NCBI GenBank assembly: GCA_038093515.1
Contig: JBBPSI010000219.1
Coordinates: 1-40,183, forward strand
DNA: 40,183 nt
Direction: 5' to 3'
From: Butyriboletus loyo
Taxonomy: Eukaryota > Basidiomycota > Agaricomycetes > Boletales > Boletaceae
Part shown: piece by piece, positions 12,862 through 40,183 of the stretch
Position numbering within the stretch: position 1 is the first letter of the stretch
How the letters are laid out: each line of letters opens with the position of its first letter
The notes under the pieces: model-generated
Database searches by the model: none
Told to the model about the DNA's origin: nothing
The model's input: the letters and a program-made list of their open reading frames with translations, nothing else
Made by a program: the position numbers and the translations under genes

Positions 12862-12866
12862 GTCTG

Positions 12867-14122: not shown

Positions 14123-14158
14123 AGCATATGGCCACCCCAGGTTGACAATATCACTTGT
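14123..14158. repeat. Left terminal inverted repeat of the KDZ element
   Basis: About 36 bp match the reverse complement of the right end with one or two transitions (for example AGCAT versus AGCAC, and CACTTG versus CACCTG). The match may begin a little before 14123, because the right-hand copy is cut by the window edge. Confidence 0.82.
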
Positions 14159-14199
14159 TATACAGCCACCCTGGGGTGGGCCCACATGTGCATCAGGAG

Positions 14200-14600
14200 T
14201 ATGTTGACAGGTAGGCCTATTGGGGGGCATATCCTATAGATAGGCAGGCCCACTAGGGATAAATCCCATGGTTGTATTGCAGATATACTGCCAATGAGTG
14301 GGCCTTCAGGGGGGTAGGTGGTATTAATGAGCAGGCCCTCAGGGGGCATATACTAGTAGCAGGTGGTCCCTCAGGGGGATAGGTGGTAGTAGCAAGCAGG
14401 CCCTCAGGGGGTGTATGCTAGTAGTGGGCAGGCCCTCAGGGGGGTAGGCAGTAGTAGCAAGCGGGCCCTCAGGGGGCATATGCTAGTAGTGAGTGGGCCC
14501 TCAAGGGGCATATGCTAGTAGCAGGTGGGCCCTCAAGGGGGTAGGCAGTAGTAACGAGTGGGCCCTCAGGGGGCATATGCTAGTAGCAGGTGGGTCAGGT
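14200..14600. repeat. Left subterminal tandem repeats of the KDZ element
   Basis: About nine units centred on GGCC(C/T)TCAGGGGG recur every 32-34 bp (near 14300, 14334, 14367, 14399, 14431, 14463, 14495, 14528 and 14560). GTAGG(C/T)(A/G)GTAGTA and CATATGCTAGTAG spacers alternate roughly. The right end of the element has a related inverted array. Subterminal repeats are often transposase-binding sites. Reading frames across this array are artefacts of the repeat. Confidence 0.85.
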
Positions 14601-14789
14601 GTGGGCCTGCAGTGGGGATGTGCTCTGTGCCAAATGGCCTGCTGGGATATGTGTGCTGTGGACATGTTGGATCGTGGGTGCCAAATACTGCTGAGAGGCA
14701 GGCCTACAGGGGTAGCATCCCACCCCTTGAGCAGCTCCTTTTGTCCCAAAGTGACATAAGCCTAATTGATCACTCTTCATCTTCCAGCA

Positions 14790-16035
14790 TGCATTCCAGA
14801 TCTGCATTAACAGAGGTGCCTGCTGGCTCACCGATATTGATGATGAATCACATCTCATGCTACATGTGATCAAGATTATCTGCTGAAATACAATTGCCCA
14901 CCAGTACATCCTGTGCTCTACCACATATCAACATTTCTGTTGAAGTAGTTTGCCAGGCAGATCAAATGGTGCATGCCCTAGTGCAAGCTCACAGGAACCC
15001 CTGTATGACCATGTTACATTACTGCGCAATGGCATTAATGTGCCCTTCAGTCAGGCTCCAGGGCTTTGATCCAATGTGGGAGGCAGATAGCATTTTGAGA
15101 TTTGAAGTGAAGCACAATGCGACGTTGGAGTCCATGGAAGGTGCTTCACAGCAACTATCAAGACCCACAATGATCGTCAATGAGCATGGATACATTATCA
15201 TGTGGTACCTCCTGTGGGCGCTCAGTATGGCAAGCCAGGTAAGCACAATGCTGAGCCTTTGGTCATATCCTCTGAGCCACCATATAGACTACCATATGGG
15301 AGTCATTTTGGCATCTCCACAGGACCCTTGCAGTGAGCATCACTGCATCTGACCTTGGGGTGAAATGGAGAACCCACAGGAGCTACTTCTGACAGGATGC
15401 TGAGCTGGCAGGCTGCATTAACATGTCCCTGGCATGGTATCAACAGGGGTGCAATGTAGGTCACATTTGCTAATATGGGCATCACACATTACATCTATTT
15501 ACAGCATACAAATGGTGAGCTAGAGATCTCTGCAATGTTAAAGGCAGGGCGCAATGATGATGAAGGAAGGAAGTGGCTCAGTGAGATTATGGGGGCGCAT
15601 TCAGTAATGTCCGCTGCCATGAGCATCATGCACCTGGAGATGTATGAGCTAGCATGGGAGGCGATGATTTGGCTTTGGCAGATCGCACCTGCAGATGACC
15701 TCACTGACCTGTGGAGCATCCTTCAACTTTGGCTCTCTGATTTCAACACCCTGTCCACAATTGTGAACAGGTCCGGCCACTGCCATCTGGACTGCAATGG
15801 GCTCCCACAATCATTTGACCAACTCCTCAGCATAGGGAATTATAGCAGCCTCGACCTGATATTCCCAAGACAGGACTTAAGGCTATGGTATCCCCCAGGG
15901 ACTGTAGTTGCATTCTCTGGGAGGCTTATTGTTCATGGGGCAGCTGAGATAGAGGGGGACTGGGCCTGCATTGCATGGTACATGCAGGACAAGGTCCACT
16001 GGATGCTAGGGGTCCCATGGTGGAATTATGCTGAG
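14790..16035 (+). pseudogene. TET/JBP-family 2-oxoglutarate/Fe(II) dioxygenase, decayed
   Basis: TET/JBP enzymes oxidise 5-methylcytosine or thymine in DNA. The readable parts are 14790-15238, an intron (GTAAGC...CCACAG), 15323-15455 (including LAGCINMSLAWYQQG), an intron 15456-15504, and 15505-16035. The last exon has the dioxygenase core: GHCHLDCNG with the Fe-binding HxD (His 15783, Asp 15789), LRLWYPPGTVVAFSGRLIVHG with the distal His (15934), then GDWACIAWYMQDKVH. Family members, as I remember them, have Arg after GD and in YMR. Here Trp and Gln replace them, both explicable by CpG transitions. The Arg after GD is probably the 2-oxoglutarate anchor. A TGA in the second exon and a one-base phase conflict at the first junction also argue against function. 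The start is uncertain. It converges with the minus-strand gene at 16540-17287. Confidence 0.78.
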
Positions 16036-16500
16036 GTAAGCAAGGTGGAAAGTTGGGAGTCGAACAAGGGCAGCACAATTCAATGATGTATATAAAATGT
16101 TAAATGAATGTTCCAGAATCGTGAATGCAAGCAGAGTTCCCATGCAGTCGAAAGGGAGCCCATCTGATTGGCAATGTGCCTGAGTGGTATATGGAGCACC
16201 CACCTGGTTGGCAGCAGACCTGCACAGTAGGCAACATACCCACCTGGCATTGTGGTTGTGCAGTAGGCAGTGCATCCACACAGTATGCAGAGCACCCACA
16301 CACCAGGCAGAATGGATGTGGGCAGACTGCTCCCATCACACAAGGCTTGTCAAACAAATTCATAGAGCATGGCTTAGTTCAGGCAGGTCTGTATGAGTAT
16401 GGTGGCATCAGATATGAGCTGGCAGGGGACAGCTTTGGTGGGCTGAATAACATGGTGCAGACCTGTGCAAGCATAATTGGATTGGCACAAATGATACATT
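16036..16500. other. Downstream of the TET/JBP core; imprecise minisatellite-like sequence
   Basis: Repeated GCAGTAGGCA and CACCCACAC-like words occur between 16190 and 16320, with no CpG. Open frames on both strands here (for example 16125-16508 plus, 16006-16363 minus) look like by-products of this composition. A further TET/JBP exon after the GTAAGC donor at 16036 cannot be excluded, because the reading is blocked by stops. Confidence 0.45.
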
Positions 16501-16539
16501 TCAATTAATTCCCTCTTCTCCCTCAGGCTCTGCATGCCC

Positions 16540-17287
16540 CAGCAGTGCATGGAGCTGTGCTCTGCAACTCCAGTAGTATCCCATCTAGGAGTCCAGCACT
16601 TCTATCCTCTCAAGGCCTTCCTGCAGCACCTTCATACACTCCTCCTCATGTTGATCCAGTGCCTGATTTTGCAGCTTGACCAATGGAGAGCTGTGGGAAC
16701 CCCACAGATTCTATCTGGATTTCAATGCAGCTAATTAACATATAATACCAATCACATACCTGGAAGTATTCATCTGAGGCCTGCAGAATGTTAGACATTG
16801 TGCCTGGCCAAACCTCCATGTCATCTGGCAGCCCCATGGCCCACCAGTTGCACATGAACTCTTGTGCATGATCTGCACTCCAGTCAGGAAGGAAGGTCTG
16901 GATGTTCTCTATCATTTTGTAGAGGTCAGGTTCCACATGGATAAGCGCCCCTTGCAGGTCATTACTCTGGCAGTGTTCATATGTGCTTTGACAGGCAGGA
17001 GTGGGGACTGGGACCATGAATCAGGTCATATATATATTCTGCAGACAGAATAAAGCAGCCTGTATCCAGCAATGATTCAGCTCGATAACAAGCAGCTCAA
17101 CTGAGGGGCTCACAAATTCCTGGTTGATGCCATAGCTCCATCCTTCAGGCCAGTTGGATCTCTCCAAGTGGGCTAAATGGCAGGCTGCCACCTTGATGCA
17201 GCAGCCTAGGTAATACATTACCCAGTGCACAATGCTTCGAGAAACATTGAGCATGCTGACATTTGAGGAGAGGACAAACAAAGACAT
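16540..17287 (-). pseudogene. Unrecognised KDZ-borne gene between TET/JBP and transposase
   Basis: Starting at 17287, the first stretch (to about 17030) includes MLNVSRSIVHW and then VAACHLAHLE, SNWPEGWSYGI and VELLVIELNHCW. An AT-dinucleotide run near 17030 shifts the frame. A second stretch (17017-16760) contains FLPDWSADHAQEFMCNWWAM and MEVWPGTMSNILQASDEYFQ, ending at a GTATGT donor. After a short intron, a third stretch (about 16735-16540) is coiled-coil-like (LDQHEEECMKVLQEGLERIE). I do not recognise the family. It lies on the same strand as the transposase and ~300 bp downstream of it, converging on TET/JBP. It has at least one stop and one frameshift, so it is decayed. Confidence 0.5.
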
Positions 17288-17581
17288 AGCAACAGCAGCT
17301 TGAAAGGAAGGGCAGTGGATGAACCACTGTTCAACAGAGTTACCCTTATAGGGAAATAGCAGGCCTATTATCTACCCATTCAAGACTAGTGCACAGCTGC
17401 ACTCCACCTTGTCTACACAATGGAGTTGGAAGTGTTAACTGCATAATTCTATGTATTGAAGCCTGACGCAGGCTAAAATGCTTCCAAGTATCCCACTGTA
17501 TATCCTGTGGCCTAGCAGGTGGTGCACTCCACTGGGCTTACTGTATGTGACTTGTCAGGTGGGTAGAGTGGGATAAATGTA

Positions 17582-20500
17582 CTAACATATCCTAAGAGAC
17601 TCCCAGGTGCCCTGGCACTGGTCCCAGAGCATGTGGTATGTGGCAGCCTGTCGGGCAGCATAGCAGGTGCGCCCATGCTCTCTGCTGGACCTGCTTTCCA
17701 CTGAGAGCTGCTTCCACTGCTGCACCTTCATGTTGAAGGAATTCATCATCCATTGAAACTCTGCTGAAATAAGTTCAACCTCTTCATTCCACCAATCACA
17801 TGCAGCCTTCGCATGCAGCCAATTGATGCGATAAACTGGGGGGGCTACTGATAAGCATTTAATATGAAGGTTAAAACTGGAGAAATACATTCAGACATCC
17901 AGTCATCCTCCTTGGCATCCTGCAGGATATCCAAAAGCCAAAACCATGCTAAGCTGTCATTGCAATGACCGCTTCCATTTGGATTGCACACTGCAGCAGT
18001 TACCTTGAGGTCTGCCTGCTCTAGCTGCTGATATCATTGAATGGTCTCCTCAGCTGCACCAAGGGAGTCCGTGACCTTGTAACATGTTCTGTAAATGGCA
18101 GCATGTTTTGTGAGGGCTGCATCCACCACGGTCACCTTTTCCCATGCACAGGTGTTAGTGGCCTGGCTTTTCACATGGTGGACCTCTGTCCTGAAAATAA
18201 CTGCCTTGTCTGCCAATGCCATTCAAATGGAGTGGAGCACATCATTTGCCTGCCCAATCTGCAGCTGCGGCTTCTGGTCTGCCAAGTCTTGGAGTCCAAG
18301 ATCATGGCATGCATTGCTCCCAACTTAGAGGAAAATGGGAGCGCTGAGCACCCAAGTGATGGAAGATGGATTTGATCAGGAGATTCATCCTGCCCATCCT
18401 CCCCATCACTATGTAGTCTGCCCATATCTGAAGATGTATTGTTTGACATTGCCTCCCCCAAATAGGCAGATGCATCTGAAAGAAAGTGGGATATATTGGC
18501 AGATAGTCTATCTGCCCAGCGGGCAATGGCTAGTTTCTGGATCTTCATTGCATGGGGCCTGTTATGATTCATTCATTTCATTTCTACTTAAGCATATCTC
18601 ACAATAGCTTATCCCTTAGCCGACTCAACTCGGAATATCTTTCTTTCTCTTCATAGATAGCGAGATCCAACCCTCAATCTATTGCTTCTCTTTAAGGTAG
18701 TCCCATGGAATATTCCATGACCTTCTATTGTACAACTTCCCTTCGCCCAATGGCAATTCTCTATATTGTATGATAGCCATCTTTCCTTTTCTATCTTTGG
18801 TCCATGCACATTCTCCTGTACTATAATATGATGAGATCTAGCTACATTGTACTCTAAGCTAGATCTACTTGGAATCACCATCAATATCCTCGTCTTCTCA
18901 TCTCTAGTAGCAAGTCGTCTTCCCTCAATCAGAACACTGGATAAATCCTTCATCTTGAAGGTTAGACTTAATGTCTAGAAGAACTCTTGAGTCCCAGAAC
19001 TACATCCAAGTTTACGCTCATACTTACCCAGTCCAAGTGTAACAGGGCCCATATGCCTACTTGTCTTTGATTAGAATAATTGATGACTCCTCAATCTGTA
19101 GCCCTTGCACCAATCAGGTTGCTCCACCATGTGGGGTGGCCACCTTATTCTCCTGATTAGCAAGAAGGTCTAATTCCACAGTGTGGACACTTGGGGCTAG
19201 CAGATCATGTATTATAAGAGGGTAAGATGCATGCATTGGCAGGAAAACACACCCTTGTTCATCTTTATTTGGAATATATCCATGGTGGAGGGATCATTTA
19301 CGCAGGAGCTTAATGCCTGCCGATATTGCTCCTGCCATACTGCACACTCTGCGTAAGTAATAGAATAACCCAGATTATCAAGTGTTTTGTTTGCTGCTGC
19401 AGAAGACCTTCTAGCCACCTTGAGCCTGCCTGCCAGCCCCTTGCCTAGCAGAGAATCAGTTATTTTCTATCAGGGATGGATGGTGTGTACTCATCCATAT
19501 CATCTTCATGAAGTTGGAATCTGAAAGTCAATGATCTCTTGCCGATGTGGGGATGACATTGTGCATGCAGATCTGAGGACTATATTAAGAATGGACCAGA
19601 GGGTTTCAATGATCTCCCCACCAATCCACCCCAAACCTTCAATGAACAACAGGGCATATTGCGAAAAGCACTGGGGCTGGTGACCATGGACATGCCATAT
19701 GCCTATTCCAGGGGTCATTTCCACATCTGCAGTAATATTGATGAATTCATTATTGCTGAGTCTCTGCCACAGCTTCTTCATGTAGGCACAATTTATGTCA
19801 TAGAAGCTGATCATGCAGTTCATCCCCTGCATGTTGTACTGAAGGGAATTTGAAAGTGCGTAATCCATATTTACCTGCCTGCATAGATGTCAGTGGGCGG
19901 AGGTATATGACAGATCACTTGCCTCTCTCCCTTTTGGAAATCTACTGCAGAATGTGGTATAAAGCAGCCATGCCATACACAGGCAGCAGCCCTAATTCCA
20001 GTTGATTCAAGGTTTCCATGATTTGTGTAAGATTGATTGACCACCCAATGATTATTACAAACTGAGCACTGTTTGCATTTTGGGCAGACATGTGAATAGG
20101 GGAGAATGCAACTAGATATACCTTATGTATACCTCTAATGGATGGTGTGTTGCCTGCAGATAATCTTGATATGGGGTGTGGGTGACCATAAAGCCATGCC
20201 CATCCATAAGCCAGACCTAATCATCCACCTGCCTGTCCTGCAAGTGCTCTGCCTTGAAGTTGCCATCCATAATGACCATTTAGCTATACTTCCAGCTATT
20301 ACAATGTGCAACTCAATGAATTGGAAGCATTAGTATGGAGAGCCTGGCTCACTCAGATAAATCATTCTCTGCAGTAGGATGGACACTTATCCCCGGCTAC
20401 AGACAGGTTGGACAGAAGAGAGCAAGGTCCCCAGGTTGCAGCAAATCTGTGGAATACCCAATGCCCCCCCACTTCATAAGCTTAAGAAGCCACCATTTGC

Positions 20501-21632
20501 AGGACACCTGCAACTGATCCCAATAGTGATCCTGGAGGGTCATGAGCAACCCACCCAGTCTGAGGCAACAGGACATAACTTACTGGGACAAGATGGGGAA
20601 ATATGCTGGAAGTGATCCTGCAGAGCTTACTATAATAGTTGCTTGCAGATGTGCCACATTCAAGATTATCTCTGATGAAGTCATCTAATACAGAGAATGT
20701 GAAGGCAGTCCTGGGGGTATTTATTGTAGATGGGAAAAGCCTTTCCTGGAGGAGATGGATGTGAGGCTCCATGGATTGTGGACATGCACAGTAGTTGAAG
20801 GAGATGAAATGTATTCCAGTGACATCTACAACTGTGATGTAGTTGGATCCTGGTGGATGCTGAAAATAGGTGGGAAGGTCTCTGGAGGGTTCATCCTCCC
20901 ATTCCCCATCATCCATGGGGAGTAGAAGGATATCCACAATATCTGCAGCAGGCCTGCCAATTGGGCAAGAATATCTGCCATGGCTGGGATGAAGCTCCAA
21001 GCCAGCCTGTGGTCATTAGCAGGTGAGGCAGAAACAGCGGAGATGATACTCACAAGGCAGAGCAATGAGGTTTCAAAGAATGACCTAGTCCACTATTTGA
21101 TTCTATGGAATGGAAGTTGGGAGTGTCTGGTTCTGCAGCAGTGAGTGCAATACAGAGGTTGTCCAAAGCAATTGGTGCATCTATATATGCCATCTCCCTC
21201 ACACATAGAGCATTTCCTTGGGTCTGGAGGGGCATCCATATCCAGCAGGATCTGCAGATATTGATCTTTATGATTAACCCACTGGCGGAGATAATCATTC
21301 TGGGTCTGTTAAAAGTGAGGGGACATAAAGATCTACATGAAATGGGAACCAAACCTTGGTAGGGAGCCTGTGCCTTGATATGAACTCAAATTCCTCAATC
21401 CCTACATTGAATTCCATGTTGCTTTCAGAAAAGGGGGCAATTGGGGTGGTGATGGATGTGGAGGTGGTAGCCTTTATCAGAGAAGAGATATGGTATGAGA
21501 TTTCTTTCTGGATGGTGTTTCTGTTTTATGCTTTATGGGAAGCAAAGAGCTTTTGGAGCCTCTAGTGGATTGCTTTGTATTCCAAGTGACCCAAGTGATC
21601 TTCTTGGGAACTTTGACTGGTCTCCCTTTCAT
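17582..21632 (-). pseudogene. KDZ transposase with CxC2 cysteine cluster, decayed and split by a solo LTR
   Basis: It should catalyse excision and integration of the element. The proposed start at 21632 has a basic N-terminus (MKGRPVKVPKK). A CxC2-type cysteine cluster lies at about 21240-21095 (KCSMCEGDGIYRCTNC ... CTHCCRTRHSQLPFHRI). Next come NYITVVDVTGIHFISFNYC and VLDDFIRDNLECGTSASNYY (about 20830-20630), MDGNFKAEHL (20270-20240), and CNNHWVVNQ and AAACVWHGCF (about 20070-19970). The core then has YDINCAYMKKL (about 19790), HVHGHQPQCFSQYA and GGEIIETLW (about 19620). The C-terminal region runs to 17582 with YRINWLHAKAACDWWNEE. The acidic residues of MDG, YDI and GEIIE are the likely catalytic set. 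Introns, TAG stops at 20217 and 21093, a frameshift near 21480, and solo LTR C show it is dead. Confidence 0.88.
18560..19044 (+). mobile_element. Solo LTR family C with GGGCC TSD
   Basis: The 485 bp copy runs from TGTTATGATTC to CAAGTGTAACA. It is flanked by GGGCC at 18555-18559 and 19045-19049. TGGTCCATGCAC at 18798 lies 24 bp before TATAAT at 18822, which sets the orientation. It interrupts the transposase between its HRQEIID/VARRSSAAANK region and its C-terminal region. Confidence 0.92.
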
Positions 21633-21962
21633 ATTGGCTGTGATTTGGTATCTAAGATGAAGTATTTACTCTGATCCACAAGGACTATTGTGAAGCTACT
21701 GTGCTATACTTGTGACCAACAGAATGTCATGACATGACATGACGTTTTGAGGGTTGGCTGTGTCAGCAAGGTGGCCTAGAGCCTTGGAACCGGCAGCTAT
21801 GATGTTCTAGATGGGATATATGTATTGAATTACCTAAAAAGACCACAGGGACAACAGTATGATATATGAGTGATGATGCTTCAGGATGGATAGTGTATTG
21901 AGGGGGAATGCAAGGGACTGTGTGCAACACTAAGAATTCCATCCACCACATCCAAGGTTGAA
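21633..21962. promoter_or_regulatory. Divergent promoter region between transposase and HMG-like gene
   Basis: The 330 bp separate the two proposed start codons (21632 minus, 21963 plus). The stretch includes the direct repeat CATGACATGACATGAC at about 21728-21743. I see no clear TATA box. Shared control of transposase and accessory gene is an inference from the arrangement. Confidence 0.4.
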
Positions 21963-23855
21963 ATGTCTACCAGCAGTAATGATGAACATTCAGTAATCTA
22001 CAAGTCCTTTGAGGAGGACAATTTACTGCAGGTCCAGGAGAACTCAAGCACATCAGAGAGCATTTCATCCAATTCCAATAGTGAAGTGGAGGGTAGGAAG
22101 GATCCCAGTGGGGCTGAGGGTGTGCCGCTCCCTCTCCCGCATGCAAGGTTTTCCAGGGAAGAGCTGCAAATCCTCACCAATGTGAAGGCTCAGTGGATGA
22201 GCAAGAAGAGGAGTGTGCAGACATGTCTGTTCACCTCAATATCCTGCCAGCTCCATCAGCTTCCAAGCTTGAAGAATGTAGAGGGTGTAGAATGGATTGC
22301 CCATGAAAAGGTGAGTTGCTCAAGTCGGGCTTCCTAGCCCTTTGCTCAACATTTTGTTAGGCATATAAAAGCTGGCTGTACAACCAATGTCGTGGTGGGG
22401 CAAATCATAGTTGCATCAAAGTCAGCCGATCATGGCAGGCAAAATCAGTAATTCAAGAGCTCCAAAAAGACGAAATAAACAACCTTATCAAAGGCAGCTA
22501 TGGGAAGGCAATGGGGTCCATGGGTGCCCTATCAGTATATCAGAAGGCTGTTGGTGATGTTATGAAGGGGCTAACAGAAGAGGAGTTGGCAGAGGTGGAA
22601 GTGACTCCAGCAGAATGGAATTTAGAGTGGGGCCCACCAGACAAGGTTAAAGCAAGGTGAGTCATACCCACTTCAACCTGCATTCAGGGGAGCTGAGTAC
22701 AGTCTAGGAATGCCACCAGATATGGGGGCACTGTCTTTCAGGAATTTGCACAGGAAATGTGGTGGGCATGTGGAATGAGGGTGGTATTGCTGGCAGGATG
22801 GAAGAATGAGAAGGGTCAGATGGTAACAACTGTGTATTTCACAGAAAACCATCTCCCTGCCTATATATGCTGAGGCATCTCAGCAGGGACTTTAATAAAG
22901 AGATCCACAGCAGAGAAGAGTTCACCCATATCAAGAAGGTCACCTCCAACTTGAAGGAGTTCATTGCTGTCAACTTCAATATTGTTGAGGATTTGCCCAA
23001 GGATGATGCCTCAGATGATGAGCCAAAGGAGAGGTGAATGAAGGTGCAGCAGGCAATGTCTCTGCCATAACCTGTGATGTTGGGTCTGCTTAGATCAGGC
23101 CCTTGGAGTCCACCTCCAGAGGGACTCTGCAGTCAATGGTCTGCAGGTTCCTCACTTATCATTACCATAAGCAAACCTCCTCATATATTATTAACCATTC
23201 CTTGATGATCCTTAGGAAGGGCCTGTGGGCATCCATGTGCACATGCACCATTCAAGAGGTTTCCAGTGCATGTGCATATGCTCATCTCTGCTGAACACTT
23301 CCCTCTTAACTTTGAATTCCCTGATGATCCCAGCCATATGAGGGTGGTGGATATTCTATGCCTCCTGAAATTCATCTGTGAGCACCAGGTGAACCATCCA
23401 GGAGACATCTTCCACTTTCACCATTGGCTGAATGATGCTGGGGAGCTGGAGGAGGCTGTGGCAGAGGATGGCTTGGAGGACAGTAGAGAGCAGTGGGGAG
23501 GACCCTCCAGGGCTGTTCAAAATGCTGGTGAAGGGGTGCGGAAGGCCTGCCATACCACCCAGCCCTCTTCCAGGGCTCTGGAGGATGATGGAGCAGACCA
23601 TGGGTGCGATGAGGAGCCACCCATAGTGGTGGTGGTGGCACCCCAGCAAATTCCTGAAGACCATCTCCACAGGACCAGGAGAGGAGGGGAAATGACCTGC
23701 CAATATGATGATGACAGGGAGAATAGTGTAACAAAAGCAACAACCAGTGATGCTAGGCTGAATACAATGTCACAGGCAGTTCCACTACTGTTGCAGGACT
23801 ACACAAAGTCCTGGCAAGTATAAGACAAGGAGCTTCAAGCTTAATCCTCAACTGT

Positions 23856-24353
23856 TGTTATAATTGTATCTCTTATAACCATCTTTTGTGTTTGGACTTT
23901 GTCATATTTCTCTTTCAAAGGTCACATGACTTAGCGCACATGATCGTGGGATTATACATGTGACCACAGGCTGACTAAGCATATGACGTCACGGTCCAGA
24001 CTGGCCCAGACTCTATGACGTCACACCTCATGTATTTAATCTCTGTTTGCTTCCCTTCTTTTTGATCACCATCAACTTCTATTTCTCATCATCGTCAACC
24101 CATGACTCTTCTCGTATATACATGTATAGTAACTAGTCTGATGCACTGCTTGGTCTGTGCGTGTTCCCTTGTAATATAAAAGGGCTCATGGTTGCAGCTA
24201 GGATTCCCTAGCTTTAACCACTTGTCTTATTCGCTGGCAACAGTTGAGAGATTAAGGTCTGAGCTATCCTCATTACACTTGCCAGTTATTGTGTTTAGCT
24301 GTGACAGTTGCGGAACCCCGTGTGCCACTTGATAACTCTGTTGTCTCGTAACA
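23856..24353 (+). repeat. 5' LTR of element D1
   Basis: 498 bp, TGTTATAATTG ... TCTCGTAACA. TGGTCTGTGC at 24151 lies 24 bp before TATAAA at 24175. Confidence 0.95.
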
Positions 24354-24966: not shown

Positions 24967-25206
24967 ATGAACACTTTGGAAATCACAATCCTTGCATCAA
25001 TCGCTGTCTACATCTTTTTTGTCACAATCCTCTTTTTTGGCCTAAAAATCTTTATGGCCATCATCACCAAACAAGAACAACCTTACACCATCACCCTCTC
25101 GTTTAACAAACACAAATTTACCACCAAGCTTTCCGTTCCCACTGATCAAAACCCTCAGGGTGACAGTGAATTTTCTGATCACGAGTGGGATCAACCAACC
25201 TGGTAA
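24967..25206 (+). CDS. Small single-span membrane protein upstream of gag
   Basis: ATG at 24967 gives 79 residues. A strongly hydrophobic segment (about residues 3-33, including ILASIAVYIFFVTILFFGL) is followed by a Lys-containing stretch and an acidic C-terminus (DSEFSDHEWDQPTW). It lies between the leader and gag, 55 bp before the gag ATG, and has no stop or frameshift although pol is broken. I do not know such a protein as a standard part of fungal Ty3 elements. It could be a chance frame, but the length of the hydrophobic run and its position make it worth noting. It is too short to be an envelope protein. Confidence 0.4.
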   Translation: MNTLEITILASIAVYIFFVTILFFGLKIFMAIITKQEQPYTITLSFNKHKFTTKLSVPTDQNPQGDSEFSDHEWDQPTW

Positions 25207-25260
25207 TTAAATCTGGGTTCAGAAACATCGGAGGATTTCCCGGTAGATGACGAGAAGAGA

Positions 25261-29800: not shown

Positions 29801-30243
29801 TCGGTCCTTATCTGATCAAGGCACTCAAGCCGAATGCTGTCGAACTTCAGCTGCCAAGCAGCATGCGAATTCATCCCATAGTCAACATTTCTCGAGTAAA
29901 ACCCTACCGGGAAACCCTTCCAGGACAGCCTGTTCTGCGTCCAGACCCAGTCAATGTCACGGACGAAGGATACTTGGAATTCGAGGTTGATTACATTGTT
30001 GCCTCCCGGATGAAGCGTAGGAAGTTGGAGTATTTAGTGCACTGATGAAACAGATCGCACATGGGAACCAGTATCCAATCTGGGAAATTCACAGGACGTA
30101 ATCACAGATTATCACCATGCCCACCCTTCTGCCCCTTGCCCCCTTTGTGGCCTATCACTTTCTGAGTTTTCTTCGCTGTTTAAAGAGTACGGTCCTGAGC
30201 ACGGAACTCCTTATCAAGGAACTCGCTTGGAATACGAGTCCTA
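26816..30243 (+). pseudogene. Pol of element D1: protease, RT, RNase H, integrase, chromodomain; four lesions
   Basis: Domains in order are protease (ALLDTGAVNTFID, about 26900), reverse transcriptase (27380-28020; YIDD at 27862-27873), RNase H (VETDASDIAVG, about 28310; IDHKNLEYW), integrase zinc region (HNSPIAGHSGQ ... CQACTLTKG, 28910-29045), and integrase core (DISVDFVTGLP, SDCGPQFVSDF, DGQTERINREME). A C-terminal chromodomain-like segment (LEYLVH ... TWEPVSNLG) ends at TAG 30241-30243, next to the polypurine tract. Lesions are an 11 bp tandem duplication at 27485-27506 that shifts the frame, TGA at 28069 and 28576 where family members have Arg (CGA to TGA), and a small deletion after 30041 in the chromodomain. 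Catalytic residues of RT and integrase are still present. Confidence 0.93.
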
Positions 30244-30255
30244 GGGGGGGGGAAG

Positions 30256-30753
30256 TGTTATAATTGTATCTCTTATAACCATCTTTTGCATTTGGACTTC
30301 GTCATATTTCTCTTTCAAAGGTCACATGACTTAGTGCACGTGATTGTGGGATTATACATGTGACCACAGGCTGACTAAGCATATGACATCATGGTCCAGA
30401 CTGGCCCAGACTCTATGACGTCACACCTCATGTATTTAATCTCTGTTTGCTTCCCTTCTTTTTGATCACCATCAACTTCTATTTCTCATCATCGTCAACC
30501 CGTGACTCTTCTCGTATATACATGTATAGTAACTAGTCTGATGCACTGCTTGGTCTGTGCGTGTTCCCTTGTAATATAAAAGGGCTCATGGTTGCAGCTA
30601 GGATTCCCTAGCTTTAACCACTTGTCTTATTCGCTGGCAACAGTTGAGAGATTAAGGTCTGAGCTATCCTCATTACACTTGCCAGTTATTGTGTTTAGCT
30701 GCAACAGTTGTGGAACCCCGTGTGCCACTTGATAACTCCATTGTCTCGTAACA
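30256..30753 (+). repeat. 3' LTR of element D1
   Basis: 498 bp, preceded by the G-rich purine tract at 30243-30255 and followed by the ACTGT TSD. It differs from the 5' LTR only at 11 sites that fit former CpG dinucleotides. Confidence 0.95.
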
Positions 30754-32080
30754 ACTGTTGCCAGCGAATAGACAAGTGGTTAAAGCTAGGGAATCCTAGC
30801 CCAAACCACAAGCCTTATATATTACAGGGAAATGCACACAGACCAAGCAGTGCGTGTGACTAATTACTATACAAGTATATACAAGTAGAAGTACAGGGTC
30901 AACAGAGATTAAATAGAAGCGATGGCGATCAGAAAGCAGAGAAGCCAAATGGAGATTAAATACATGAGGTGTGATGTCATAGAGTCTGGGCCAGTCTGAA
31001 CCATGATGTCATATGCATAGTCAGCCTATGGTCACATGTATAATCCCACAATCACATGCGCTAGGTCACATGACCTTTGGAAGAAATATGGTGAAGTCTG
31101 AAGAGCAAAAGTCTGTTATAAAGTATACAATTATAACAGATAGGCCCTCTAAGGTGCCAGAGGTAATGCATGAGGCTGGAGGAAAGGGCAAGGGTAAGGG
31201 TAAGCAGCATGCCAAGGAGCCCAATGTGGGCAAAGGTATGGGTGGTGCAAAGTCAGATGGGATTGCCTCCTCCTCTCAACCTCCTGCCCCACATGTTGAC
31301 CCAGGCACCTCAGGAGCTGCAGGTAGCGCTGCATGCCCTGCCTGCCATGTGGGAGGAGCTGTGGCAGGAAGGGCCTGTACAATATATCTGCCCACTCCAA
31401 AGAGGTCTGCCCTGAAGTGCCAACTAGAGCCATCTGCTGCCTCTGATCAGGCCCCAGCAACATCTACCTGCCCCCCAGATTCCCGGCCCATGTTCACTGC
31501 AGTGGCACCCACCCCCAATGCCTCTGCAGGGCACTCACCTTCACCAGCAACTCCTGTGCCAAGGGTTGCACATAGCCATCCCAATATACAGGGGCCACAG
31601 CAGAGTGAAATGGCAAGGGATCCAACCTCAAATCACCATTTCTCAATGGATCCCACAACACCACCAATCAGAAAGTGGCAGTGCATAGCAGATAACAAAG
31701 GCAGCAATGTCATCACAATGCTCCAGGAGGGAGGCTGTTAGTCATCACACACCCACAGACCAACCATACCAGCTGATGTGAATGTGGAGATGCTGGCAAA
31801 AAGGGGAGCAAGAAGGTGGCCAACACAGGGGACAATCCAACCGGGAGCTAAGAAACCAAGATGTGTAGCAGCATAGGGCTCCAAATGTACAGTAGCTTAG
31901 ATGCAAATACATGTCGTATCCCTTAAGGAATTACTCTGGTTGCATGTTGTGAATGGGGCTTCATTCTGATAGTTTGTGAGGGCACTTACATTTGTTTAAG
32001 TGGATACCTGTGTTTACATCGGGCCATTATTTGAGAAAATGAGTTATACAAAAATATACAGAATGACATTGCTAGGCTAT

Positions 32081-34161
32081 CTAATGAGGTGCCATGCTGC
32101 TTCCAATGTCCTGCATCTTCTCATCTTGCCCCCCCTGCTCTGCTTCATCCTCAGCTCCAATGCTCTCCACATCTGCATTAATTGGTGGCTCTACCTTGTC
32201 CATTTCCATCCCACCCCCTATACCACTGATCACCATTTCTCTATTGACCTCCATCAGAGCCGCATCGTCAGCTGCCATCACTGCAAGGATTTTGATTGGT
32301 GGATATGAGGCGGCACATTGCATTTGTGGTGCCACCCAGGGCAGGAAGGCCATCACATTGGTGGAGACAGTTTGCAATGATGCCACCAGCATGTGGGAGG
32401 TTAGCATCCCAACTGATGGAGCTGGGTGGGGTGTAGTGGTGGCCTGGCCAGAGCCTGATGAGTGTGGGGGCTGTGGGGATGCCATCCGCATGCCTGCGAT
32501 GGATGTGGATTCTGTGGGGAGCAGGTCCTGTGTGGCTGCCATAGTTTCAGATGGAGGTGGGGTAGCAGCCCCGATGTCAGAGGGTGCAGTCATTGTCCAG
32601 CGCCGGGCAGGCAGTTGTGAAGAGGTTGGGGGGTCTGATGGATAGTGGATGGAGGAAACTGGGGAACTGGGGATAGGTCAGCAACATGTTGTCAAGTTAC
32701 CTCAATGACCTGCCCCAGGAAGTTGACACCCTGCTCCAGTGTACCCACCCACTGGTTAAACTCATCCTGGAGGGCAACAAATGCCCCCTCTAGGCAAGAA
32801 AATGCCAGGCAGAGCTGCTCATACTCTGCCTGTGAAATGAGTGGAGTGCCATAGATACTGTAGGGTGGCCCAGGCTGAAGCTCTGAGCCTCCTGCAGCAT
32901 CTCAATGTGGGGCCCCTATGCAGTGACTGCATTGAAGAGGGTGTGGTTGGTGTATATGCTGCCTTTTTGAGTTGGCAATGAGGGGTGGGGTATTGGGAAG
33001 GCAGAGTTGATGTCCCTTGGCTCTAATGTTGGGGCTTGATGGGGAAGGGGATTCAGGACACTATGCTGTCATGGGTGGCTATTTCATGGGGCAGGACTGG
33101 GAGCATATTTGCATGTGCTTTGTTGGGCAATGGCCTTCAGGTAATGGTGATGCCTCCCTCCCTGTCCACTGGGTATCCTTGGAGGCTGCTGCAGGTGGTG
33201 GTGGTGGGCTGGACTCCAATCCTCCCCCCGCTTGTGGACACCTCTTCTTGTGTGCCCTGCATGTCTCGCATGCACACTGGGCCTTTGGGACGCATATTAC
33301 CCTAGCATGCATGCATGTTGAGCAAATGTCAGCAGGCTGCTCAGGCATCAGGAACACTGCCTTTACAATGCATGGGGGCAGGGTGGGGGTAATGGTAGGG
33401 GGGAGCTCATGTTAATGGAGGGTGAAGTGGTGGGGGGTGGTACATCCATGGTGGTGAAGGCACTGGGAGTGGGTGATGAGGTGGCTGTCAGCATGTTGTT
33501 GTTGCCAAAGCCCCCTTCATCTTCAACATCTGGAGGGGAGAGGTGGATGAGTGGGTGGCAGATGAAGCTCCGCCTGATGGGTCACCCACACTCCTCCTCC
33601 TGGGGCATTGATGAAACCCTCTGCTTTTCCTTTACTATCTCTCTTTGCCACTTTTCTTTCCTCTTCCTCCTCATCTTCTGCCTGACATTCCTTCCCCATC
33701 TCCTCCTGTTCTCCCTCCTCCTCATCTCCCCCTGCTTCTTCCTCCAATGCCTCTCTCTTCATGTCAACCTGACATTCTTTGCATGAGGAGGTACTGCTGA
33801 CAGTTTCTGCCACTACTACCCTGCTTACCCTCTGTCTCCATGGATGGCCCTCCAGCTTGTGCTCCTCACAGTGGATTATGTGGGTCCAGTCAGGCCAATC
33901 CGAAGGCATGCACCCCCAGAACCTATTGACCATGATGAGGAGAACTGGGACATGGTCAGCTTGATCAACCACTTCCCGCACCAGCACCTGGGGACCATTA
34001 GTTACAACATACCAGCTGTGATAACCATTGCCATGCACCATGCTTCCTTCAATCAGCTCCATTGACTTGCACCAGTTATCCTCCCCTCCTGCTATCACAT
34101 ACTTGCCAATCACAGCAGAGATCTATTTGTTTGCAGCTGTGAGGATTGCATTTGCAGCCAT
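32081..34161 (-). pseudogene. KDZ-borne gene with acidic region and zinc-cluster-like Cys motif
   Basis: Reading from 34161 (MAANAILTAANK, then TAG at 34125-34123), the first part includes KYVIAGGEDNWCKSMELIEG, WYVVTNGPQVLVREVVDQAD and WPDWTHIIHCEEHKLEGHPW. It is followed by a long Glu-rich region (about 33760-33620). A second block (33357-33080) has CSTCMHARVICVPKAQCACE then TCRAHKKRC, spaced like the fungal C6 binuclear zinc cluster (CX2CX6C...CX2CX6C), then Pro-rich sequence. The last block (32593-32081) is Ser/Pro-rich and ends acidic (DVESIGAEDEAEQGG). A DNA-binding regulator is a reasonable guess, not shown. Stops and frame changes between blocks partly reflect introns I could not place. 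It is divergent from the IPxxP-repeat gene, with 217 bp between starts. Confidence 0.5.
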
Positions 34162-34378: not shown

Positions 34379-35237
34379 ATGCTGCCGAGCCGCCGCCAAG
34401 TGCACATCACATCAACCAGTGAGTCCTATGCCCTACCTAGTTGTAAGGCCTCACATATTACAGCTGAGGCATTTGACCTCTCCAGTGAGCCAGATATGGA
34501 GCATGCTGAATTGGACAGAGCAGTGTCTGCTGCGGGCTTTATTGCTCCACACCCACCACCATCATTCACCAATCCATCCAATGAATCAGATGTCCATAGG
34601 CACCTGCAAGGCTTGAGGATTCCCTCACCTCCAATGATCACCACCCATTCAAAGCCACCAACTGGATCCATTCTGGACAATAGTGAAATGATGTACTTGC
34701 ACAGTCTCAGGATTCCCTCACTGCTGCCAACCACCTTTCTCCAAAGATCCAAGCCACCCCCATCCAGCTCAGATAACAGTGCCCTCACCCACCTGCAGGG
34801 CTTGACAATTCCATCACTGCCCAACACCACATGTCAGCCACCCATAACACCCATGCCCCTTCAGTATATCAGTGAGATGGGCAGCCCTTCCAAGCTCAAG
34901 GGACTGTGGGTTCCACCACCTCCAATGCTGGACAAACTAGAAGGCAACAAGGACACTATGGATGTAGACCTGCCTGGAATGTATCTCATTTAAAGCACCA
35001 ATCATAGCTACAATTGCACTTGTTACATTGATCCTGACCCAGGTGAAATTCCCACCCCTCCACCTGCCACTAAGGCCTGCTTTGACACAGCAACCCACGG
35101 TCGGACACTCACCATAGAGCTCCCCCCACATATTCTGGCTTTGTGAGGAGTGCATGAAAGGAGTTGTCAGTAGGCCCTGCTGCAGGCCCACTGCAGGCCC
35201 TTAGACGAGCTACCGCTCAGCCCCACAATATCACAAC

Positions 35238-35756
35238 TGTTACACTAGCAATGCACGGTTGAATGCCAGTACAAATACTTTGTCACACAGGGTCCACTAC
35301 AGTCGCAGGTATACACAAATACCTGGCAAGTATGAACTAGGAGCTTCAGCTTAGTCCTCAACTGTTACCAGCGAATAGACAAGTGGTTAAAACTAGGGAA
35401 TCCTAGTCTAACCACAAGCCTTTATATATTGTACAGAGATGCGCACAGACCATGCTGTGCATGAGATGAACTACTATACATGGCTAGACTAAAGAAGAGA
35501 AGCGCAACAGTGATTAACCACACGAGATGCAGGGATCAAAAAGAAGAGAAGTAAACAGAGATTAAATACATGTGTTGTGACATCATAGAGTCTAGGCCTG
35601 GTCTAGGCCATGACATCATATGCTTAGTCAGCAGGAGATCACATGTAAGTTCCCACGATCACATGCGCTATGTCACATGACCTTTGAAAGTGAAGTTTTT
35701 GAAGGAAAACTAAGTCCAGTGTTGAAAATGTACGAGTAAATGTTATGATTATAACA
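35238..35756 (-). mobile_element. Solo LTR D2 (family D), ACAAC TSD
   Basis: 519 bp on the minus strand (TGTTACACTAGC ... GATTATAACA). It is flanked by ACAAC at 35233-35237 and 35757-35761. It matches D0 and is more distant from the D1 LTRs. GGTCTGTGCGC lies 24 bp before TATATAAA on the minus strand. Confidence 0.93.
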
Positions 35757-36040
35757 ACAACTCACATGTGACCCTCCAGCCCCTGAGGAAACAGCAGCAG
35801 AGTTCTACCATCTACAGACTGACAGCTTCTCAGGAGCAGCAGGGCTCATGTTGGGTGAGTACCATCCATTGGATTCCAAAATGTGTGCTCACAGCATTCT
35901 GACTCAGAGACAATGGAAGCAAGGTCAACCATGTGCAAAGTAGGTTTGCCAACTAATACTGCAGACAGGCTTGAGCTGGATGGCCCAATTCAACATGCCA
36001 TAGAGAAATACAGTGGCTCAAAAAAGTATCTGCATGTTTG

Positions 36041-37400
36041 TGTTATGATGCTATCATATCATGAGAACTTTACAGACACTTTACAAACATTTTATTATAC
36101 TCTGTACCATATGAACTGTTATGCTGGGTGCTAACAACTAGAACAGCGAGGCGGCACTCTGGAGTAGCTGCAGGACTCGAGAGACGATTCTGGGAGAAGT
36201 CTCAGACTATGTCTTAGTGCTTGCACTAAGAGTCTGGAGTGAAGCTAATTGCTAGCAGGTATCTGCATAGAACTAGATAGTGTACATGGGAGTAACGACT
36301 GGATCTTTATACTACTGGGGTCTGCGCACAGACCATGTCCCTAATCGGGTCATAAGGGTAAAAGACAAAGGTGGAAGGAATACTCTAGAAGCTTCTGGAG
36401 TATGGGAGAAACGGTGTCCGTGCGTGGGAAGTGATGACTAAGCTAGAATGGTTGGTACTGTTCAAAGGGAACTAGCAATAGGCTAGGTGAATGTAGTAGT
36501 CCCAATGGTAATGGAGAGAAAAAGTAGACCACTACCATAACACGAACTCTACACTTGAACACTGGAGCCAGTCACATTGTTTAGACTTGGAGTCTTCTTC
36601 CTCTTTCCTTATGACGAGAGTCACGTGACCATTATCACATGATACCATGTGACCATGGGAAACCACATCATGTGATGTCCTATCCTGGGACAATTGTTGT
36701 GTACTAGTAGACTTCTTAGTTAGGGTTACTCCTATTGTTCCCCTAGCTCTACTAGCTACAATCCTCTCTCTACACAATTGTGGACTTAGACATTTCCTTT
36801 GTCTTCCTGATCTCATCTATCCCCATATGGTGAACCTCGTTGGTTCCGCTCTTCTTTAATCACCGTATACCTTCCATTCCTTTAATTACTGTTTTATAGA
36901 TCATGATCCTCAGATCTTGATCTCTGACGCTTTCGTACAGATTGTATCTTGATAGATCAATCTTGCTTCCTTTCATCTCTGCTATGTGAGAACTCTCTTA
37001 TGACAGCTTCCATTCTTTTAATCTCCACTGTGTGAGAACTCTCTCACAATAGCTTCTCTATTTAATATCCACTCCCTGAGAACTCCTCATGGGATGCACT
37101 CTGTACTTATATATTATAGTAGATAGATAAGGATGACACACAGCTTGGTCCATGTGCATTCTCTGTAATCTATAAGTACAAGGCTGGTGAAGCCTGGGTT
37201 TCCCCCAGTCTTTATCACTTGTATACTTTGCTACCCTTTGGTGGTGAGGTGGTATCGGTGGTTCTGGCTCACTGGTTAGAATTGCCAGGAGTAGTGTCCT
37301 GCGAGTACACGTCAGAACTGGGTATGGGCCCTGCAAGTGTTTTGGGTTGTCTCTTAGGAGATGGCTTGATGTGTGCGCCATTGAAAGATGGTGCACAACA
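36041..37400 (+). mobile_element. Solo LTR family E with GTTTG TSD, containing LTR A3
   Basis: It runs from TGTTATGATGC to GTGCACAACA and is flanked by GTTTG at 36036-36040 and 37401-37405. Without LTR A3 and one TSD copy it is about 929 bp. TGGTCCATGTGC at 37146 lies 25 bp before TATAAG at 37171. It interrupts the left terminal repeat of the Tc1 element. Confidence 0.88.
36117..36542 (-). mobile_element. Solo LTR family A, copy A3, inside LTR E
   Basis: 426 bp, closely matching A2 (8400-8824). Flanks are TGAAC (36112-36116) and CGAAC (36543-36547), a 5 bp duplication differing by one CpG-type transition. The TATA box points left. Confidence 0.9.
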
Positions 37401-37605
37401 GTTTGCATATTTTACATTAAATATCACTCAATGCAATAACCCCTTATCCTAACCCTAGGTGGTGGGTGTATGAAATAAGGTACACACCCTCAGCCTTCTA
37501 TTGGCCCAGGAATCAGGTAATATGGATAAGGTTTGATGGAATTTCAGCTATTTTAAAATGACAGGTTATGTGGACAGTTTTTTGACTTTACAAAAATCCA
37601 ACTAT

Positions 37606-38591
37606 CTAGTATTTGATATGAGCTCCCTTGGCCTTGATAACTGCTTCAACTCTTTTGGGCATGCTTTCTATCCATTTGTGACACTGTTCCACAGAAATAT
37701 TTCCCCACTCTACCACCACCCTTTTCCATAATTGATGAACTCCTGTAGGAGCACTATCATAAGCTGAGAGACATCTTTTGAGGTGATTCCAAGTGTGTTA
37801 AATGGGGTTGAGATCTGGAGATTGTGCAGGCCAATCCAGAAGCTTGATTCCTTGCTCCTCAAACCAAATCTGGGCTCTTTTGGAGGTATGTTTGGGTTCA
37901 TTATTCTGCTCAAAAATGATATCATGTTGAGAAATTCCAGATTTCTCCATGCATTATAGCAATTCTTCCTTTAGAATTTAAACATACTGTTCACCATCCA
38001 TCCTCCCCTCAACCTCACTTAAATCCCCCACTCCATTGAACCTTATACCATTAGGAAACTTGCTCCAAATTTGACTGTACCTTTAACCTCATTAGCAGTT
38101 AGACCCTCTCTCTTCTTTTTACACACATATACTCCTGTCCATCTGACCCAATTCTATTTATTTTCGTCTCATCTGACCAAATAATCCTCTTCTAGTCCTT
38201 ATTGATACTTGAGAGCAAAGGCAAATCATCTTTTTCTAAGGCTGATTGGAAGAAGACATTTCTTCTTCTTCATCACAGCCTTTAAATGCACCCTCTTTGA
38301 GGTCTTTTCTCACTGTATGTGAGGGCATGGGAGGTTCAGTGATGGAATAGCCTGGACTGCATTTTTAGCCTTGCCAGTAATGATTTGCTGGACAATAGCA
38401 CATTTGTTGATAGGAGTAAGCTTAGAAGGACAGTCAGCATGAAGGTTCTCCTTGTCAGGTTGGATCTCTTGGAGTACCCTGGCCACAGTAGATTTCCCTA
38501 GGCTAGTCTGGGAGGCAATCTTCCTAGTTGAAAGGCCAAGAGAGGAGAGAGAGATAATATTTTGTCTTAGAGAGGTGGAAATGGATTTCAT
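37606..38591 (-). pseudogene. Tc1-like transposase, decayed
   Basis: The N-terminus at 38591 (MKSISTSLRQNIISLSSLGL, then STRKIASQTSLGKSTVARVL) is a paired-like helix-turn-helix. The catalytic domain is traceable through stops: IIWSDETKINRIGSDG (about 38190-38145) for the first Asp, a block near 37905-37875 for the second, and SPDL near 37805. The C-terminus AKGAHIKY ends at TAG 37608-37606 and is typical of the family. Many stops (about a dozen) and shifts make it non-functional. Confidence 0.85.
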
Positions 38592-39199
38592 GGTGATGGT
38601 GAGAAAATAAACATGGGAAGATGGGGTTTTTATATGTTGGCTGACACTCAGTTACATAAAGGTGACATAATAGGACCCTTGATGGATGTATGTAATGATA
38701 TTACAGCATATAGGGTCTAATATATGTGATCAAAACTTAAAGTCAAAAAACTATCTGCATGACCTGTCATTTTAAAATAGCTGACATTCCATCAAACCTT
38801 ATCCATATTACCTGATTTTGGGCCAATAGAGGGCCAAGGGCATGTACTATATGTCGTACACCCACCGCCTAGGGTTAGGATCAGGGGTCATTGCATTAAG
38901 TGATATTTAATGTAAAATATGCAAACATGCAGACAGTTTTTTGAGCCACTGTACAAGGGGCTGTTTGTGCGAGCAGCTAAGCAGAGACAGAAGACAGCAG
39001 AGCAGGCCTTGAAGGATTTGGATGCGCTTGATAGGATTCAAGCAGAGTGACAAGGAATCAATAGGTAGATTGTGAATGCCATTATATAGATGCATCACCA
39101 TTTGCAGCCTATTTGGCTTCCAATTTATTACATGACATCCTGCTGACAATGAAGAATCCAGCTATCTAAGGCACCCTGAAAATCAGGATTGTATGGAAG

Positions 39200-39680
39200 C
39201 TATGGAGTGATATGACAGGGGCTGCTTGCAAATAGTGTACTAATCCTGGGCACCCACGGGTGCTTAGTACATGCCCCCTGGAGGGCCCATGTACCCAGTA
39301 TATCAACCCCACAGGCCTGCTTGTGCTTAGTACATACACCCCCCAGGGTGCCTGCATGTACTCCATGCACCCACCCCTATAGGCCTATGCATGCTTAGCA
39401 TTTACTCCCTTGTGGGCCCATGCATGCATGGTGTAGCAATCCTCTGGGTCTGCTGATACTTAGTATATACCCTGCTGCAGGCCTGTGCATGCTTAGTGGA
39501 TACTCCCCTGTGGGCCCACTCATCTCTAGCACCTACCCCCCTGCAGGCCCATTTGTCTATAATACAACCATAACATTTACCCTAGTGGGCCTGCCCATCT
39601 TTAGTATACACCCCCCTAGTACAGGCCCACCCATCAAAGCATTCCTAACTCACACACAGGCCTGCCAAGGGGTGGCATGT
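39200..39680. repeat. Right subterminal repeats of the KDZ element
   Basis: Units of roughly 30-43 bp carry GGGCCCA or AGGCCTG followed by TGCATGCTTAGTA and a C-rich run (near 39280, 39310, 39385, 39412, 39477, 39512, 39543, 39590 and 39625). On the reverse strand they resemble the left array. The 39051-39200 stretch before them holds no recognisable gene. Confidence 0.75.
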
Positions 39681-39682
39681 GT

Positions 39683-40183
39683 CAGGTGATATTGTCAACC
39701 TGGTTTCGGAATTGGTAAAGTCTGAGCAGGTGCACTGAGGGCAATGAAGAATGCAAGGGTGAACATATCAGTGGAAAGACTTACTGATAACATGAGAGTG
39801 AGAGTATCACAAACAGGTGTACTTGAAGAATATAAGAAGCAAGGCTCAACTTAGAGATATCACAGTAGTGGTGATAGAACTGAAAGATCTAAAGAAAAGT
39901 GACAAGCCATAAGGGCTGTCTTATATACAGTACATGAGTATTTGTACTTATGTTCTGTATAGTACCTATATAAGGTATAGTATAAAACATATGACAATAT
40001 GTTAGAGATAAGAGATGAGACTAAACATATCGTCCAATAGCATAATAAGAGCTATTTGTAATGAGACAAGCATGACAGAGTCTAGACAATGATGTCATAT
40101 AAACCAGTCTGGAAACATAGTGGCTGTAAGTGAAATACAGAAATAGAACACTACCATTTCAACACCTGGGGTGGCCATGTGCT
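39683..40183. repeat. Right terminal inverted repeat of the KDZ element, interrupted by LTR F
   Basis: The two parts are 39683-39703 (CAGGTGATATTGTCAACCTGG) and 40170-40183. Joined, they match the inverse of the left terminal repeat over its whole visible length. The sequence ends at the window edge, so the outermost bases and the target duplication are not seen. Confidence 0.82.
39704..40164 (-). mobile_element. Solo LTR family F with CCTGG TSD inside the KDZ end
   Basis: 461 bp, ending CATTTCAACA on the plus strand (TGTTGAAATG on the minus). It is flanked by CCTGG at 39699-39703 and 40165-40169. The other terminus reads TTTCGG instead of the expected TG, a probable point change. It lacks the GGTC motif shared by LTR families A-E. 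Confidence 0.8.

Follow-up and report, generated by a model that had tools for sequence, protein, structure and literature searches.

A multi-copy five-gene KDZ transposon of Butyriboletus loyo carries a TET/JBP gene, a gene for a probable DNA-binding protein and CpG-bearing subterminal arrays

TET/JBP genes in fungal transposons are already known, and the question raised by the locus described here is how the encoded enzyme would favour its own element. The stretch analysed (the window) is the whole of contig C219 of Butyriboletus loyo, 40,183 bp from a host assembly of 30.3 Mb in 420 contigs, and it contains an old degenerate DNA transposon of the KDZ superfamily, riddled with insertions and belonging to a multi-copy family. 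The best explanation of the whole, with a probability of about 0.8, is a degenerate multi-copy KDZ element with five genes and a putative mechanism connecting its subterminal arrays to the TET enzyme; the anatomy of the element, that is, its ends, five-gene set and fixed gene order, can be regarded as nearly certain. Its parts are listed below by window position (LTR, long terminal repeat).

14090..14096: GCTCACA, seven bases outside the left terminus, candidate target-site copy; its partner is absent from the contig
14097..14189 (+): left terminus and terminal inverted repeat, GAGCCCATGTAGTCACATTGTCA..., with the shared end pattern
14190..14720 (+): left subterminal array of units of about 32-33 bp, in which the CGGGCC core has mostly become TGGGCC/CAGGCC
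14870..16083 (+): TET/JBP dioxygenase gene, with matches to C256 in two stretches; continuation to 16505 only possible
16649..21632 (-): KDZ transposase gene including CxC2, divided by the solo LTR; start codon read by eye
18560..19044: solo LTR inside the transposase gene, 5-bp duplication GGGCC
21894..23787 (+): HMG-like gene, with a C256 match reaching to about 23480
31141..31738 (+): stretch past a nested insertion that may continue the HMG-like gene at its C-terminus, by eye only, with no C256 match
33082..34161 (-): Zn2Cys6-type gene; extent toward 32084 uncertain, start codon by eye
34379..34993 (+): IPxxP-repeat gene, with MDVDLPG near its end
39220..39703 (-): right subterminal array and inner right inverted repeat
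40165..40183 (-): outer part of the right terminal repeat; the contig ends about 26 bp before the terminus

The first-pass annotation had proposed a single element starting at 14123, bounded by matching inverted ends with inverted subterminal arrays and measuring about 14-15 kb without its insertions. The ends were found from 14097 on the left and in two pieces, 39681-39703 plus 40165-40183, on the right, the left tandem spans 14293-14594, the right array was detected at 39505-39703, and about 14.5 kb remains once the insertions, with borders known in part, are subtracted. The left boundary had to be moved to the terminus at 14097 shared with other copies. The terminal inverted repeats are imperfect both in the window (71% over 213) and in the copy on contig C256 (78% over 121 bp), and the ends are asymmetric when read inward, GAGCCCATG.. 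on the left and CACATAATG.. on the right (GAGCCC and CACATA, respectively). In the fetched loci GAGCCCATGTAGTCACATTGTCA.. occurs at 10 left-type ends, with different DNA outside each of them, and the partner form CACATAATGTAGTCACATTGTCA.. at 7 right-type ends; both sets were collected by pattern with at most 2 mismatches, so that agreement within the pattern is by construction and the switch to unrelated DNA outside it is not. The window's own target duplication is unreadable because the contig stops about 26 bp short of the right terminus, and a genome search for the right-hand partner of GCTCACA returned 8 matches, all with at least two mismatches.

Copies with the same genes and ends were recovered elsewhere in the genome. 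The copy at C256:10424-27867 reads right end, IPxxP, Zn2Cys6-type gene, HMG-like gene, CxC2-KDZ transposase, TET and left end, a mirror of the window order, and is flanked on both sides by AACTTTC, an exact 7-bp duplication. At 17,444 bp, with about 0.8 kb of apparent insertion, it is longer than the window element, and its transposase frames carry stops. C185 is collinear with C256 at about 93% and holds the five genes, with TET partly deleted and the right end lost. A stretch of 12.7 kb on C77, starting at the right end and including the transposase, is 94% identical to C256; C77 shows the right end and four genes, with no TET found. On C3 (92.9% over 5.9 kb, then a retrotransposon) the right end, the IPxxP gene and the Zn2Cys6-type gene are present; C64 has the same three parts and is then interrupted by another KDZ element. 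The left-type end of this second element lies inside the Zn2Cys6-type gene of C64, whose cysteine cluster is interrupted (read by eye), and adjoins TGCCAAG. A genome search with the right-type end plus TGCCAAG returned one exact match, C64:87736-87757, as predicted from the other side, together with three matches carrying 2-3 mismatches, and the reversed control gave 0. This derivative measures 3,633 bp (C64:87744-91376, by arithmetic, its inside being partly fetched), and 7-bp target duplications were thus read at two copies other than that of the window, AACTTTC (C256) and TGCCAAG (C64).

The family order, as read across these loci, is fixed: TET/JBP(+), CxC2-KDZ transposase(-), HMG-like(+), Zn2Cys6-type(-), IPxxP(+), a layout that contains the two divergent gene pairs noted earlier. 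Scoring pairs of typed hits within set distances, order and strand agreed with the window for TET-KDZ (8/8), KDZ-HMG (11/11), HMG-Zn (5/5), Zn-IPxxP (17/18), END-TET (10/11) and IPxxP-END (13/14), and the exceptions are non-neighbouring pairs, two in C400 and one in C201. END entries were 40 of the 110 end rows, and where a contig held a further fragment of a gene already counted, that fragment was omitted. The counts include the likely duplicate contigs C416/C219 and C129/C323, so that independent cases are fewer, as well as C243 with two KDZ pieces and C339 with two ends. An IPxxP gene is also present on 17 of the 18 contigs with a Zn2Cys6-type gene, the exception being C408. The gene set is common to two subfamilies, with about 40-80% identity between their matched protein stretches. 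No copy ending between the genes was observed.

C416 was considered as a further copy and discarded, since it matches the last 11.17 kb of C219 nearly exactly where compared: C416:1-11170 against window 29012-40183 gave 100% for the Zn2Cys6-type gene, 98% for the IPxxP gene and 100% for the right array. Because both contigs end inside the right terminal repeat, C416 is probably an allele or duplicate and not a new insertion. At C201:31037-40745 a left end, TET and a right-type array fall within 9.7 kb, which suggests an internally deleted copy; its target duplication was looked for and not found. Furthermore, some in-frame stops are common to copies that differ by 6-8% (the transposases of C256 and C77, the IPxxP genes of C256 and C3), which may mean that a defective master copy was mobilised in trans or that one CpG decayed on two occasions.

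Pfam matches to TET/JBP, KDZ and CxC2, together with the C256 copy, bear out the proposal of one KDZ element carrying TET/JBP inside matching ends. The TET/JBP domain lies at 15460-16083 (E 3.1e-11), and the window protein is similar to CcTET (PDB 7vpn, E 1e-21), with which it aligns at HxD, at the Gly331 and Asp337 equivalents and at the distal His; the Gly and Asp positions of CcTET are described in PMC12730594. At the CcTET Asp position, 11 TET sequences show Asp in 4 and Asn in 4, the remaining 3 not being read by the pattern, and 5 carry stops. In the transposase gene, KDZ is found at 19509-19889 (PF18758, E 8.4e-23, above cut-off) and CxC2 at 20485-21012 (PF18803, E 5.2e-22); a CxC2 region is reported for intact KDZ elements of Pleurotus ostreatus (PMC7641404).

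The element had been credited with a sixth, "unknown" gene on the minus strand, from open reading frames at 16649-18572. This candidate was rejected, since a single open frame of C256 aligns on both sides of the solo LTR (residues 13-64 at 19200-19045, residues 64-174 at 18557-18226) and the frames are the C-terminal part of the KDZ transposase, split by that insertion. The earlier gene order therefore stands for five genes, which recur in the same order in other copies, and not for six. With residues 300-930 of the pieced C256 transposase as protein query, 553 relatives with E <= 0.001 were found among 7,995 scored candidates. Among the 120 matches listed, the best is a 1,071-residue Pisolithus albus protein with CxC2 and KDZ that spans the whole query, about 240 residues of the match falling in the "unknown" part by our own count, and relatives of about 1,000 residues cover the transposase together with part of the same region. 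The matches listed point to Boletales (Pisolithus, Imleria, Boletus) as the closest relatives of the predicted transposase, the best-scoring one at 47%.

The HMG identity proposed for the third gene found no support from Pfam, which gave no HMG-box match in it; a structure model of one of its exons reached a mean predicted local distance difference test score (pLDDT) of 51.6, too weak for use. The Zn2Cys6-type gene contains a cysteine cluster at 33238-33324 and an N-terminal domain at about 33823-34122; its part toward 32084 has no match in C256, and the window copy is interrupted by a stop near codon 13 (read by eye). The fungal Zn2Cys6 cluster follows the pattern C-x2-C-x6-C-x5-12-C-x2-C-x6-8-C. 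Unfiltered, this pattern occurs once in the six frames of the window, and the spacing C-x2-C-x6-C-x7-C-x2-C-x6-C was found in the gene from the window, C256, C3, C77, C185, C339, C186 and C400, i.e., in 8 of 12 sequences, a count that includes matches holding KK; the pattern was not seen in the loci of C226, C370 and C408. The description of this gene as zinc-cluster-like thus stood as regards the cysteine spacing, conserved between divergent subfamilies, but not as regards the Pfam family PF00172, which scored below its cut-off. The product is a probable DNA-binding protein. Protein searches scoring 7,989 and 153 candidates gave no relative elsewhere at E <= 0.001, a result that does not prove absence; the 7,989 were the candidates sharing most words, and low-complexity words may have crowded this list. 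Finally, the IPxxP gene of C256 retains the repeats and MDVDLPG, though the window query itself gave no match there, and 6 of 18 IPxxP rows are full length without internal stop, two of these (C256 and C3) with a stop just upstream.

The subterminal arrays are set apart from the gene-bearing parts by their GGCC density, 21-25 per kb in eight array stretches vs 3.0 and 4.7 in two gene-bearing bodies. A ranking covered 604 CpG-containing hexamer families, counted on both strands with their TpG/CpA decay products, and used the lowest enrichment that each family reached in any of four arrays, the left and right ones of the window and of C256. Our interest in the CGGGCC core arose from reading the arrays, and the hexamer was not preselected in the ranking. 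The CGGGCC family came first with a least enrichment of 12.7-fold, followed by the overlapping GCCCGC (6.5) and by a third family at 2.0; 60 shuffles gave at best 8.85, with a median of 4.3. The two bases before GGCC are CG, TG or CA at 11/13 sites in the window left array, 8/10 in the window right array and 20/21 in C202, and at only 16/33 and 13/29 sites in the C256 arrays. The latter carry the same dinucleotides after GGCC (26/33 and 26/29), which is the same site on the other strand; the corresponding values are 3/13 for the window left array and 3/21 for C202. By this ranking the four arrays compared share one CpG-bearing core, CGGGCC, mostly decayed at its CpG. CGG is the triplet usually read by Zn2Cys6 proteins.

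Decay at CpG extends over the whole element. Four KDZ stretches of the window have observed/expected CpG ratios of 0.12, 0.08, 0.10 and 0.06, compared with 0.72 for the left flank, part of which consists of retroelement remnants; the Gypsy insertion stands at 0.67, the solo LTR at 0.42 and C256 at 0.46. TpG and CpA are raised alongside the CpG loss. Among five young copies, 146/184 differences in the IPxxP gene and 414/571 in the Zn2Cys6-type gene lie in CpG contexts. Naive ratios of nonsynonymous to synonymous change (dN/dS) were 0.44-0.79 for IPxxP and 0.30-0.46 for the Zn2Cys6-type gene, and had been read as purifying selection; this reading was withdrawn once the CpG mutation spectrum was modelled, which gave 1.04 and 0.89, respectively. 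The only signal left is that of the whole Zn2Cys6-type gene for non-CpG changes, at 0.54, where the other sense frames gave 1.15 and 1.38 and the antisense frames 0.73-1.36. Judging from their differences, the young copies decay close to neutrally, chiefly through CpG loss.

These features suggest how the element could work. From family knowledge, the KDZ transposase would cut and paste the DNA between the ends, and the small derivatives would move in trans. The Zn2Cys6 protein would be an array-binding factor supplied by the element itself, with the CGGGCC cores at both ends as its sites, and together with the TET enzyme it would hold these CpG-bearing positions free of methylation, leaving the ends fit for use; the IPxxP protein would be a disordered partner. 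Upon failure, copies would become methylated and their CpGs would decay, which is the state of the window copy. That the Zn2Cys6 protein binds the arrays and works with TET against silencing is a tentative proposal, which we place somewhat short of even odds, and a pure transposition role of the extra proteins is as likely as an anti-silencing one. The fuller form, in which the element possesses its own sequence-targeted demethylation, the Zn2Cys6 protein reading the CGGGCC arrays and guiding or protecting TET action while the IPxxP protein docks, is on present evidence rather unlikely. AG-type TETs have been speculated to act without target specificity (PMC12730594). With its fixed five-gene unit, its probable DNA-binding protein and the CpG-bearing site common to the four arrays compared, the family offers a testable candidate for targeting; if true, targeted demethylation would account for a preference of transposon TETs for the element that carries them. 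Moreover, this multi-copy system allows transposition, through its 7-bp duplications, non-autonomous derivatives and CpG decay to be read together in one genome.

Several observations weigh against the explanation as a whole. Being tandem, the arrays do not offer independent sites, and their repeat structure was lost in the shuffles; the arrays are also compatible with a plain GGGCCC core, and the gene-pair promoters are nearly empty of CGGGCC, with 1 in the Zn-IPxxP promoter of C256 and 0 in four others. As for the Zn2Cys6 assignment, PF00172 reached 14.3 bits against a cut-off of 21 (E 0.047) on one C256 stretch and gave no match for the window or C3 genes, the basic residues usual between cysteines 2 and 3 are mostly missing by eye, and the structure model of the N-terminal domain had a mean pLDDT of 45.2, too weak for use. 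The dN/dS values below 1 vanish under the CpG-spectrum model, the N-terminal domain alone carries no signal (0.83 on 14 changes), and the copies are CpG-decayed despite the family's TET gene. Lastly, 9 of the 18 contigs with a Zn2Cys6-type gene (C416, C339, C186, C400, C226, C370, C64, C3 and C404, several of them short or interrupted) have no KDZ or TET hit. This goes part of the way towards right-hand genes standing alone, a point against the unity of the element as first annotated; C3 and C64, the only two of these nine examined more fully, both begin at the same right end.

The alternative that survives best keeps the same five-gene element and makes the Zn2Cys6, HMG-like and IPxxP proteins transposition accessories, for subterminal-repeat binding and transpososome assembly, beside a broad, untargeted TET. 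Arrays with one shared core fit accessory-protein sites equally well, and the transposase already has a candidate for DNA binding in its CxC2. Against this account, methylation would be expected to matter at the CpG of the shared core, and TET keeps its order with the transposase in 8/8 pairs; neither point is decisive, and we hold this account to be a serious possibility that falls a little below an even chance.

Alternatively, the Zn2Cys6-type and IPxxP genes might be passengers, captured once by an ancestor and decaying without function, as the neutral look of the young subfamily after CpG correction and the stops in many copies would allow. However, subfamilies with about 40% identity in the Zn N-terminal domain still have frames, order and six cysteines in common, the non-CpG value of 0.54 stands below those of the other sense frames and of the antisense frames, and a third of the IPxxP rows remain full length without internal stop (C256 and C3 with a stop just upstream), all of which makes passenger status improbable. 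That two adjoining elements, a TET-KDZ-HMG transposon and a Zn-IPxxP unit, came together by chance or nesting could draw on the nine contigs just named, but is very hard to reconcile with the single pair of ends and exact target duplication around five genes in C256, the collinearity of C185 and C77 with it at 93-94%, the HMG-Zn order in 5/5 pairs and the gene set common to two subfamilies with matched stretches about 40-80% identical.

Besides the solo LTR, the element in the window is interrupted by the following insertions.

23788..31140: LTR retrotransposon of Gypsy type (23856-30755) nested in an older LTR remnant, remnant borders by eye
35359..38950: mainly inserted LTR remnants and a Tc1/mariner-like element, borders approximate
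39704..40164: insertion of 461 bp inside the right terminal repeat, 5-bp duplication CCTGG

The Tc1/mariner-like element occupies 37401-38926, with inverted ends at 37401-37590 and 38738-38926 and weak helix-turn-helix matches. CpG content seems to order the insertions by age, from the KDZ stretches (0.06-0.12) through the right-end insert (0.15), the Tc1-like region (0.20) and the solo LTR (0.42) to Gypsy (0.67). In the left flank, retroelement remnants with reverse transcriptase, Pol beta-barrel and integrase domains were observed at 3011-10568 and 7133-13583, with inverted arms at 7133-7855 and 12863-13583. An aldehyde dehydrogenase fragment at 1926-2399 (-) (Pfam E 3e-21) perhaps represents the remains of a host gene.

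Among known systems, the TET+ Kyakuja elements of Agaricomycetes come close to the window family, with a KDZ transposase, an AG-type TET/JBP gene, 7-bp target duplications, which are reported for Kyakuja, and one terminus beginning with CA when read inward. Kyakuja-1_LB and Kyakuja-2_LB are described as CA..TG without terminal inverted repeats (Kojima 2025, PMC12730594, also the source for the Kyakuja duplication length), whereas the left terminus of the window family reads GA and the family has imperfect terminal inverted repeats plus arrays. Because of the GA left end and these repeats we file the family as KDZ with an AG-type TET, and not as proven Kyakuja. The Zn2Cys6 and IPxxP genes of the window family are likewise not mentioned for Kyakuja in the available part of PMC12730594, and a literature search over titles and the opening lines of abstracts, which missed most subscription papers, showed no other paper on such a gene set; this agrees with the first-pass annotation, which took both genes to be undescribed, and with the protein searches for the Zn2Cys6-type gene. 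Zisupton and Dileera share the KDZ domain and, in the case of Zisupton, terminal inverted repeats, but 8-bp duplications are reported for Zisupton and Zisupton-1_PGr (Dileera) in the same source (PMC12730594), as opposed to 7 bp here.

CcTET of Coprinopsis cinerea (PDB 7vpn) belongs to the same oxygenase family and its key residues are aligned in the window copy, which differs in sitting in a broken multi-gene transposon. In the En/Spm TnpA system, a protein encoded by the element acts on sites of that element which are repeated and prone to methylation. A Vandal protein is reported to regulate its own silencing sequence-specifically (PMC12730594). The analogy of both TnpA and the VANDAL anti-silencing proteins with the window family would lie in an element-encoded protein on the element's own repeated methylation-prone sites; they belong to other superfamilies and are other proteins, and the effector proposed here would be a TET dioxygenase.

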